Source of the DNA: Salinispira pacifica | Lineage (GTDB): Bacteria; Spirochaetota; Spirochaetia; DSM-27196; Salinispiraceae | DNA: 64,000 nucleotides | Direction: 5' to 3' | Assembly: GCF_000507245.1 (NCBI RefSeq) | Contig: NC_023035.1 | Span: 1,279,501 to 1,343,500, forward strand | Part shown: positions 29,627 through 53,504 of the stretch, in pieces | Numbering within the stretch: the stretch's first letter is position 1 | How the letters are laid out: each line of letters opens with the position of its first letter | Program-made: the position numbers and the translations under genes | Notes under the pieces: model-generated | What the model was told of the DNA's origin: nothing | Seen by the model: the letters and a program-made list of their open reading frames with translations, nothing else | Databases searched by the model: none

Positions 29627-30109
29627 ATGACCATTGATTCACGGGCATTCGGCAGCATCGATGTGGACGACAAACAAATTATCAGTTTCCCCAAGGGAAT
29701 TCTCGGTTTTGAAGATCATCACGATTTTGCCCTTCTGGATGCTTCACAGGCTCCGTTTTACTGGCTCCAGTCACTGAGCAACGCCCAGACTGCGTTTGTG
29801 CTGATCTCTCCCGATGTGTTCCGGAAGGATTATGAACTGAGTGTGGTGAGTGCGGAGCTGGAGCTTCTGGAAATTGTGCAGAAGGATGACGGAGATCTGG
29901 TGTACCGGGGGAGCGACGAATCCGCCGAACTTCTGGTTCTCTCCATTGTAACCGTCACTGCGGATAAAAATCAGATGACTGCCAACCTCCAGGGGCCCAT
30001 AATCATCAATCCCCGGGACCGTTTGGGAATGCAGGGCATCCAGACCGATGCGAAGTGGAAAACCAAACACTTCATCCTCCAGGAGATGTCCCAAGGGGAG
30101 GGCGGCTGA
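29627..30109 (+). CDS. fliW: flagellar assembly factor FliW
   Basis: 160 aa. Signatures include [18 protein letters not shown] and [15 protein letters not shown]. FliW binds free flagellin or CsrA; when flagellin is used up, FliW is released and blocks CsrA, relieving translational repression of flagellin. The stop overlaps the csrA start (TGATG), so the two antagonists are translationally coupled. See the flaB leader elements at 38.3 and 39.7 kb. Confidence 0.95.
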
Positions 30110-30339
30110 TGCTTGTACTCACCAGAAAAATCAACGAAGCGATCATGATCGGCGACGATATAGAAATTGCCGTGGTGGATATTAAAGGCGACCAGGTGAA
30201 ACTGGGGATCCGGGCACCCAGGTCGGTGAAGGTGTTCAGACACGAAGTGTACGAAGCGATCCAGGACGAAAACCGCAGAGCCGCCGAATCCTCCGGGGAC
30301 CTGCCATCTCTGGGGGACTTTCCTCCCAAGAAGGACTGA
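30109..30339 (+). CDS. csrA: CsrA, RNA-binding translational regulator
   Basis: 76 aa from ATG 30109; the longer frame reads into fliW. The core [20 protein letters not shown] and the RNA-contact strand [17 protein letters not shown] are intact. The dimer binds GGA motifs in hairpin loops and at Shine-Dalgarno sites. In B. subtilis and Borrelia CsrA controls flagellin translation. An 18-residue polar tail extends beyond the core. Candidate targets and a candidate sponge RNA are in this window. Confidence 0.97.
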
Positions 30340-52262: not shown

Positions 52263-52292
52263 TTGACCACTTATGAAATGCTATAGTACTAT
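52263..52292 (+). promoter_or_regulatory. promoter of tRNA-Leu and the downstream repeat RNA
   Basis: TTGACC (52263-52268), 18-base spacer, TACTAT (52287-52292). The expected start is a few bases before the tRNA 5' end at 52305. No other promoter is evident before the terminator at 52787. Confidence 0.65.
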
Positions 52293-52304: not shown

Positions 52305-52391
52305 GCCGGAGTGGTGGAATTGGTAGACACAGGGGACTTAAAATCCCCCGGCTATAACATAGCTGTACGGGTTCAAGTCCCGTCTCCGGTA
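52305..52391 (+). tRNA. tRNA-Leu (UAA anticodon)
   Basis: 87 bases with long variable arm (class II). Acceptor GCCGGAG pairs with CTCCGGT (one G-U), anticodon stem GGGGA/TCCCC around CTTAAAA with anticodon TAA at 52339-52341, T arm GGGTTCAAGTCCC. The CCA end is not encoded. Confidence 0.97.
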
Positions 52392-52752
52392 TATAAGAAG
52401 GCTGAGCAACGAAGTTGTTCAGCCTTCTTATAATTTAAAGGGGACTTGAACCGGAAGAGCGGCCCGACCGGAAAGGGAGGGAAAATCGTCAGGAAGACGA
52501 TTTAGCGATGGAGGCGGCTGAGAAGGAGGCCACAGGAAGTGGCCGACTGAGGAGAAGTCCCGTCTCCGGTATAAAAGAAGGCTGAGCAACGAAGTTGTTC
52601 AGCCTTCTTATAATTTAAAGGGGACTTGAACCGGAAGAGCGGCCCGACCGGAAAGGGAGGGAAAATCGTCAGGAAGACGATTTAGCGATGGAGGCGGCTG
52701 AGAAGGAGGCCACAGGAAGTGGCCGACTGAGGAGAAGTCCCGTCTCCGGTAT
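52375..52752 (+). repeat. two tandem 180-bp repeats built on the tRNA-Leu 3' end
   Basis: Positions 52381-52560 and 52561-52740 are the same 180 bases with a single difference (T at 52394, A at 52574). An 18-base block, AAGTCCCGTCTCCGGTAT, that is the tRNA 3' end plus one base recurs at 52375, 52555 and 52735. Each unit contains a 16-bp near-perfect hairpin (AAGAAGGCTGAGCAAC arm) and two smaller hairpins with AGGAA loops. Confidence 0.95.
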
Positions 52753-52787
52753 GCATGAAAAAAGATCCCGCAGGGGTCTTTTTTTAT
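52393..52787 (+). ncRNA. candidate CsrA-sequestering (CsrB-like) structured RNA, co-transcribed with tRNA-Leu
   Basis: No reading frame fits this stretch. In each 180-base unit one hairpin has arms AAATCGTC/GACGATTT (52483-52503, 52663-52683) and a second has arms GGCCAC/GTGGCC (52528-52544, 52708-52724). The stems are unrelated, but both loops are AGGAA closed by C-G, i.e. CAGGAAG, the repeat motif CAGGA(U/C/A)G of CsrB. The stretch 52441-52560 contains ten GGA triplets. GGGACTT (52441) can pair with AAGTCCC (52555) to close the whole domain. Promoter upstream of the tRNA and terminator at 52757-52787 bound the unit. The RNA and its function are inferred, not observed. Confidence 0.5.
52757..52787 (+). 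terminator. terminator of the tRNA-Leu transcript
   Basis: AAAAAAGATCCC, loop GCA, GGGGTCTTTTTTT: a short stem with a long U tract directly after the second repeat. It fits plus-strand transcription from the tRNA side. Confidence 0.85.
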
Positions 52788-52877
52788 GCAATTGTGGAGA
52801 AGCGACGGGACTTGAACCGAAGGCCGAGGGAAATTGAACGAAGAGAAATTTTGCGGAGTCCTGCGAAGCAGGAGAAT

Positions 52878-53504
52878 TTACCGACTTCTTCCGGCGGCTT
52901 TCTCTGCAAGATTGCGGCATTCGCTGTGACGGAAACAGGTGGTGAGGTGATCGTTTACCATGCCCACCGCCTGCATGAATGCGTACACTATGGTGGGGCC
53001 CACAAAACTGAAGCCCCGTTTTTTCAAATCTTTTGAGATTTCTCTGCTCAATGGGGTCTCGGTGGGAATTTCACGTATCACACTGAAATGATTCTGGATG
53101 GGCGAGTAGTTGATCCGACCCCAAAGAAAATCGGAGAGCGATTCTCCATCATCCTCCATCTTCACAAATGCTTTGGAGTTGGCTATGATCGATCGTATTT
53201 TCAGCTTATTTCTGATGATGCCCGGATTGCTGAGCAATCGGGTGAAATCCTTTTCCCCGTAGTTGATGATTTTTTCCGGATTGAAGTTATCATACGCCCG
53301 GTAATAATTCTGCATTTTTTTCAGAATTGTGAGCCAGCTAAGGCCTGCCTGCTGGCCGTCAAGACAGAGCTTGGCGAATAATTCCCTGTCATCGAAGTTG
53401 GGTACACCCCAGACAGTATCATGATAGTTCTCATATATTTCTGATCCGGCACACCAGGGACAGCGGTTCGGATCTGGACTGCCTTTTAAAATGCTGGGGT
53501 TCAT
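52878..53504 (-). CDS. tag: DNA-3-methyladenine glycosylase I
   Basis: 208 aa. Tag signatures: CPWCAGSEIYENYHDTVWG with the zinc-binding Cys, LCLDGQQAGLSWLTILKK, FSFVGPTIVYAFMQAVGMVNDH and terminal HSEC with the His/Cys zinc ligands. It removes 3-methyladenine from alkylated DNA. The 70 bases after the stop (52801-52877) contain a degenerate third copy of the tRNA-linked repeat and a TCCTGC/GCAGGA hairpin. Confidence 0.95.
   Translation of the reverse strand: MNPSILKGSPDPNRCPWCAGSEIYENYHDTVWGVPNFDDRELFAKLCLDGQQAGLSWLTILKKMQNYYRAYDNFNPEKIINYGEKDFTRLLSNPGIIRNKLKIRSIIANSKAFVKMEDDGESLSDFLWGRINYSPIQNHFSVIREIPTETPLSREISKDLKKRGFSFVGPTIVYAFMQAVGMVNDHLTTCFRHSECRNLAEKAAGRSR

Follow-up and report, generated by a model that had tools for sequence, protein, structure and literature searches.

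What is the array of two 180-base units that follows the tRNA-Leu(UAA) gene of Salinispira pacifica, and does its RNA act on the regulator CsrA? The first-pass annotation of this DNA had proposed a CsrB-like CsrA sponge transcribed as the tail of the tRNA. We examined this proposal in the window of 64,000 nucleotides that was analysed (GCF_000507245.1, NC_023035.1, forward strand 1,279,501-1,343,500; window coordinates are used below) and in related genomes; the S. pacifica genome itself is a single contig of 3.78 Mb. We interpret the array as a pair of spirochaetal tRNA-linked repeats (TLRs) whose RNAs bind, and probably titrate, CsrA, a reading that we consider, from sequence comparison, reasonably probable as a whole.

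Anatomy of the array

Each unit is composed of a strong hairpin, a 119-nt element and, as its last part, a duplicate of the 3' tail of tRNA-Leu (17/17 identical; Table 1). As described originally, both units lie 3' of tRNA-Leu(UAA) and carry the same two hairpins, hp1 and hp2, with unrelated stems and identical C[AGGAA]G loops, and the reported ten GGA triplets in 120 bases correspond to exactly ten in each 119-nt element. The GGA-GGA spacing in the window element is 43 nt. Hairpins with a stem of at least 6 bp and a GGA-containing loop of 5-6 nt occur four times per 360 bases, compared with 0.0045 in shuffled sequences, and the folding check that had been suggested gave a unit 4.8 sd better than dinucleotide shuffles (z -4.8). 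The listed open reading frames across the array are all short. A promoter and one terminator had been thought to bound the stretch; the closing terminator is substantiated by its fold and T-run (a terminator scanner was silent there because the T-run forms part of the stem), the promoter amounts to a consensus match, and the picture is amended in that each unit also opens with a strong hairpin. What had been missed is that both ends of each unit copy tRNA sequence, and that copies of the element are found 3' of many other tRNA genes. The element opens with the tRNA T-arm in reverse complement, and this strand and the tail copy together make up the stem that closes it. A degenerate third unit runs, at its end, into the 3' portion of an ORF on the minus strand (52878-53504), which we take to resemble a DNA-3-methyladenine glycosylase.

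Table 1. Features of the tRNA-Leu(UAA) array and of the fliW-csrA region in window coordinates (hairpin loops in square brackets)
Feature	Position	Strand	Remarks
fliW	29627-30109	+	PF02623, E 1.7e-36
csrA	30109-30339	+	PF02599, E 4.5e-27; L4, R6 and R44 conserved in alignment with E. coli CsrA
Promoter-like site upstream of tRNA-Leu	52263-52292	+	TTGACC-18-TACTAT; 9/12 consensus match only, not functional evidence
tRNA-Leu(UAA)	52305-52391	+	ARAGORN, Rfam RF00005
3' tail of tRNA-Leu(UAA)	52375-52391	+	AAGTCCCGTCTCCGGTA
Unit 1, terminator-like hairpin	52392-52432	+	without clean T-run; fold -28.6 kcal/mol
Unit 1, T-arm reverse complement	52441-52452	+	GGGACTTGAACC; 5' strand of closing stem P1; from sequence
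Unit 1, structured element	52442-52560	+	P1, P2, P2a, hp1, P3, hp2; R1 112 bits, R2 104 bits
Unit 1, hp1	52483-52503	+	AAATCGTC[AGGAA]GACGATTT; CsrA-type loop 52491-52495
Unit 1, hp2	52528-52544	+	GGCCAC[AGGAA]GTGGCC; CsrA-type loop 52534-52538
Unit 1, tRNA 3' tail copy	52555-52571	+	17/17 identical
Unit 2, terminator-like hairpin	52575-52609	+	without clean T-run; fold -25.1 kcal/mol
Unit 2, structured element	52622-52740	+	R1 112 bits
Unit 2, hp1	52663-52683	+	AAATCGTC[AGGAA]GACGATTT
Unit 2, hp2	52708-52724	+	GGCCAC[AGGAA]GTGGCC
Unit 2, second tRNA 3' tail copy	52735-52751	+	17/17
Intrinsic terminator closing the array	52753-52789	+	GAAAAAAGATCCC..GGGTCTTTTTTT; fold -25.5 kcal/mol, T-run
Degenerate third unit	52807-52900	+	T-arm reverse complement GGGACTTGAACC at 52807-52818

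A family of elements at tRNA and tmRNA genes of Spirochaetia

The structured element, about 120 nt in length, is located behind eight tRNA loci in the S. pacifica genome. Inspection of the DNA behind 42 tRNA genes revealed the same anatomy, each time with the ends of the respective tRNA, at tRNA-Asn, Pro, Arg, Met and three Leu genes; the arrays at tRNA-Asn and at tRNA-Pro have grown to five tandem units. A covariance model built from four units (R1) matched 29 places in this genome, one locus among them without a recognised tRNA, and by our own count the elements contain about 50 GGA loops. As the MAFFT alignment of all units misplaced P2a, it was replaced by a small hand-structured alignment; the elements on which the refined model (R2) was trained are GGA-bearing. 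Matches to R1 were obtained in 30 of 46 genomes of the order. Searched with R2, 393 genomes sampled from the phylum gave 80 positives in 37 of 168 genera, a single class accounting for all except two. A conserved-motif pattern run over 84,980 species returned 26 matches, all from spirochaetes, including the cultured Breznakiella homolactica. Across Spirochaetia the family is associated with tRNA and tmRNA genes; its anatomy, structure, loops and distribution are shown by the sequence comparison.

One hundred distinct elements are situated not more than 130 nt 3' of a tRNA or tmRNA gene, usually at a distance of 50-70 nt, and the host genes fall into 26 types (25 tRNA types and tmRNA). Among 130 elements with an upstream tRNA, 90 end in a sequence at least 80% identical to the 3' tail of that tRNA over about 17 nt; in 113, at least 8 of 9 positions agree with the T-loop/stem of the same tRNA in reverse complement. 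The core is common to many tRNA species, yet the ends match the local tRNA; at one locus (L182:1090-1632), a tmRNA gene is followed by a full element with ends copying the tmRNA 3' end. At 91 of 100 loci the spacer between gene and element can form a hairpin with 6 bp or more, and at 75 of the 100 a terminator with T-run separates the two, so that expression of the element needs read-through. Also seen between array units and upstream of tRNA-Met is a second small repeat, CGAGCAG-hairpin-CGACCAG (L148, the L027 Arg array and L012).

Two alternatives to titration concern this linkage. Instead of being titrated, CsrA might act in cis: bound to the element, it would govern read-through, or how the attached tRNA precursor is processed at its 3' end, or how stable that precursor is. 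The strict association with tRNA genes, the complementarity of the closing stem to the cognate T-arm in the 113 elements above and the position about 50 nt 3' of the tRNA agree with that. We regard it as quite improbable: expansion to five tandem units is better explained by extra binding capacity, the hosts are many unrelated tRNA species, and most loci have a terminator ahead of the element. Alternatively, the units may be selfish or recombination-born tRNA-tail repeats for which tRNA 3' ends are safe insertion or recombination targets, their hairpins being structural or bound by some mobility factor and any CsrA binding incidental. Direct repeats of the host tRNA tail, the use of tRNA and tmRNA targets of 26 types, tandem expansion to five units at tRNA-Asn and at tRNA-Pro, truncated and decayed copies, and a patchy distribution all speak for such an origin; against it, the ends are nearly always cognate, so that recent transfer between tRNA genes is not visible, and neither the pattern nor the blastn test gave any match to the element in viral, phage and plasmid collections, for which reason a phage or plasmid mobile element was dropped as a candidate.

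The fold is supported by covariation. In a set of 91 distinct elements, both partners change in a compensatory manner at 30 of 34 pairs, and the covariation score is 0.465, versus 0.134 for shuffled and at most 0.09 for slid alignments, the pairing being inflated since the alignment was fitted to the structure. An independent RNAalifold consensus recovered hp1, hp2 and P3, with compensatory changes in 14 of 14 predicted pairs.

No Rfam family scored above threshold on the units. Besides tRNA, the only plausible matches were sub-threshold ones to models of the CsrB clan, namely CsrB (21.1 bits, E 0.001, gathering score 71) and PrrB_RsmZ (28.8 bits, E 0.002, gathering score 44). 'CsrB-like' is an apt term for a mode of working and, on the CsrB score just given, fails as a family assignment. 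Matches to Thr_leader, ylbH and Plastid-ycf2 were dismissed as low-complexity, hairpin or tRNA cross-hits, and identity with Termite-leu RNA was rejected, as Rfam gave no such match on the unit.

Hairpin loops and the presence of csrA

The hp1 loop contains GGA in 133 of 150 distinct elements, and in 116 of these 133 the loop is of the CsrA type A(N)GGAN and is closed by a C-G pair. Pentaloops (CAGGAUG in 43 elements, CAGGACG in 14, CAGGAAG and CAGGAGG in 9 each) alternate with hexaloops that have one extra base (CAUGGAUG in 13, CAGGGAUG in 11). In hp2, GGA is found in 74 and ACGAN in 62 of the 150; nine elements have ACGAN in both hairpins. The SELEX consensus of CsrA is RUACARGGAUGU, with GGA within a hairpin loop, and the repeats of CsrB read CAGGA(U/A/C)G (PMC7652899). 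Judged by their letters, the hp1 loops, penta- and hexaloops alike, fit known CsrA sites, and ACGAN is no CsrA motif; the window array has four hairpin GGA loops of the CA(N)GGANG consensus, multiple copies of which characterise CsrB and RsmZ. The long stems of the family (6-9 bp) count against a CsrA reading when compared with SELEX ligands, which mostly have four or fewer contiguous pairs (PMC7652899).

The first-pass annotation had also placed FliW in the same bacterium, and fliW is indeed encoded in the window, next to csrA (Table 1); L4, R6 and R44, conserved in the latter, are presumably its RNA-binding residues. Among the 393 phylum genomes, 333 have csrA, as do 76 of the 80 that bear the element. 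Most csrA-positive spirochaetes sampled are without the element, which is therefore not essential to CsrA control. Of the four element-bearing genomes without csrA, three (G256, G392 and G395) keep their flagellins and are devoid of the adjacent flgL-fliW-csrA block; the absence of csrA is likely to be an assembly gap because flgL, fliW and csrA are missing together while the flagellins are kept, and these genomes were accordingly not treated as cases of genuine csrA loss.

Two families do not have csrA, their tested genomes being flagellin-less as well, and nine element places were found in four of their genomes; in the remaining csrA-less genomes, the search for the element yielded nothing convincing. 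The eight elements examined are reduced, yet have kept the T-arm complement, the scaffold and the tail copy. GGA in a loop of hp1 or hp2 type occurs in none of these eight, as opposed to 133 of 150 (Fisher p 1e-7, with relatedness ignored). In several, hp1 is gone entirely, and one 72-nt form has a GGA triloop inside GGCC-GGA-GGCC, which is no CsrA-type loop. By comparison, the short elements of the csrA-positive genome G364, which are without hp1, still have CAGGATG in hp2. The contrast comprises two families and eight elements, retrieved by a model built from GGA-bearing elements, and is weakened by the few lineages, their relatedness and the model bias, although R2 would find a GGA-bearing element in a csrA-less genome more easily, not less.

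The near-equal frequency of AGGAN and ACGAN in hp2 might mean that the protein reading the loops is not CsrA, or that the loops make a tertiary contact, the true consensus being S-G-A (GGA or CGA). That is highly improbable in our view, as hp1 favours GGA (133/150) and accepts the extra N of A(N)GGA, GGA is absent from the hp1 and hp2 loops of the eight csrA-less elements, and the short elements examined in csrA-positive G364 retain CAGGATG. The comparison bears on the selfish-repeat explanation from both sides: survival of the scaffold without csrA suits it, and so does the near-absence of G-U pairs from the stems of hp1 and hp2 (about 0.4-0.5% in hp1), which could stem from palindrome repair at the DNA level and therefore keeps a DNA-element reading alive; however, fixed A(N)GGAN loops on stems that turn over, and the absence of CsrA-type loops from elements of csrA-less lineages, are at odds with it, and we hold it to be unlikely.

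These same two observations argue for selection for CsrA binding. The annotation had named a want of loop conservation in related genomes as evidence against its proposal; in about 150 relatives the loops are conserved and the stems covary, with A(N)GGAN penta- and hexaloops alternating, and this, together with the elements of csrA-less lineages devoid of any CsrA-type loop, strengthens the case for CsrA. Binding of CsrA by the elements we consider likely, and titration of CsrA as their selected function moderately probable.

Comparison with known systems and a possible CsrA sink

The closest counterparts are the TLRs of E. coli, traced to Egan & Landy 1978 and Rudd 1999 and including rttR/rtT behind tyrV (PMC8144298). 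They are defined by the identity of their last 18-19 bp with the 3' end of the tRNA or rRNA gene that precedes them, and are present in 1-5 copies per locus (PMC8144298). Like the spirochaetal units, they are tandem repeats behind a stable-RNA gene with a 3' end copying that of the gene, and the tyrV TLR likewise begins with the tRNA tail in reverse complement, which gives it the same two-ended anatomy. With this shared anatomy, and three E. coli TLRs binding CsrA in vitro (PMC8144298), the 'new architecture' originally suggested was too strong; the novelty lies in the existence of a family in spirochaetes, in the regular occurrence of CsrA loops within it and in its coexistence with FliW. On E. 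coli TLRs, R2 scored 13.9 (tyrV) and 12.8 bits (rrnB), on the correct strand and with E 0.015-0.027 over 2.6 kb, and at such scores homology is unproven. Of the 22 TLRs in E. coli, 19 are predicted to be non-binders of CsrA, whereas most spirochaetal TLRs have a CsrA-type loop in one or both hairpins and a fold in common.

The three binders, RrA, RrB and RrF, stem from rRNA operons, where they are positioned between two terminators and produced by read-through; in vitro their GGA loops mediate binding to CsrA at about 100 nM, and phenotypes were weak (PMC8144298). The RrB hairpin GGGC[AGGAC]GCCC has a loop identical to that of many spirochaetal elements, and R2 aligned hp1 at this C[AGGAC]G loop (12.8 bits), which is suggestive and no proof of homology. 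Stable-RNA linkage is common to both groups, but RrA, RrB and RrF are three near-identical copies in rRNA operons of Enterobacteriales, which have no FliW. The CsrB/RsmB and RsmZ/PrrB sRNAs (Rfam clan CL00106) have CAGGANG hairpin repeats as well; the spirochaetal elements differ in scoring below the gathering thresholds, in having no dedicated gene and no gammaproteobacterial host, and in being spread as one to five short units over several tRNA loci. In E. coli, 3'ETS-leuZ is a regulatory RNA from the 3' part of a tRNA-Leu transcript (cited in PMC8144298); it sponges the sRNAs RyhB and RybB via base pairing, whereas the target proposed here is the protein CsrA.

In the mechanism that we propose, leaky read-through of the tRNA terminator would give a tRNA-element RNA, from which tRNA 3' end processing would free the element, each presenting one or two hairpins to a CsrA dimer. 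The approximately 50 loops of the genome would jointly keep CsrA off the mRNAs that it controls, to an extent proportional to tRNA synthesis and alongside control by FliW. That such distributed hairpins form a collective, growth-rate-linked sink beside FliW, and that titration was the ancestral role of TLRs, is a tentative proposal. If true, spirochaetes tie global post-transcriptional control to stable-RNA synthesis, CsrA-binding RNAs gain a broad home beyond Gammaproteobacteria, and tRNA-linked repeats, for which no function has been known since 1978, acquire a candidate role; it also bears on whether FliW and sRNAs jointly modulate CsrA in any species, a question raised in PMC7652899. The comparison of csrA-positive and csrA-less lineages adds evolutionary support of a kind absent from the work on RrA, RrB and RrF, because clear phenotypes were not found in E. 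coli.

A group II intron fragment (RF02001, 62 bits) was detected at L024:1719-1886, immediately 3' of a tRNA terminator, and its sequence also occurs 3' of a second tRNA gene (the L033/L048 tRNA).
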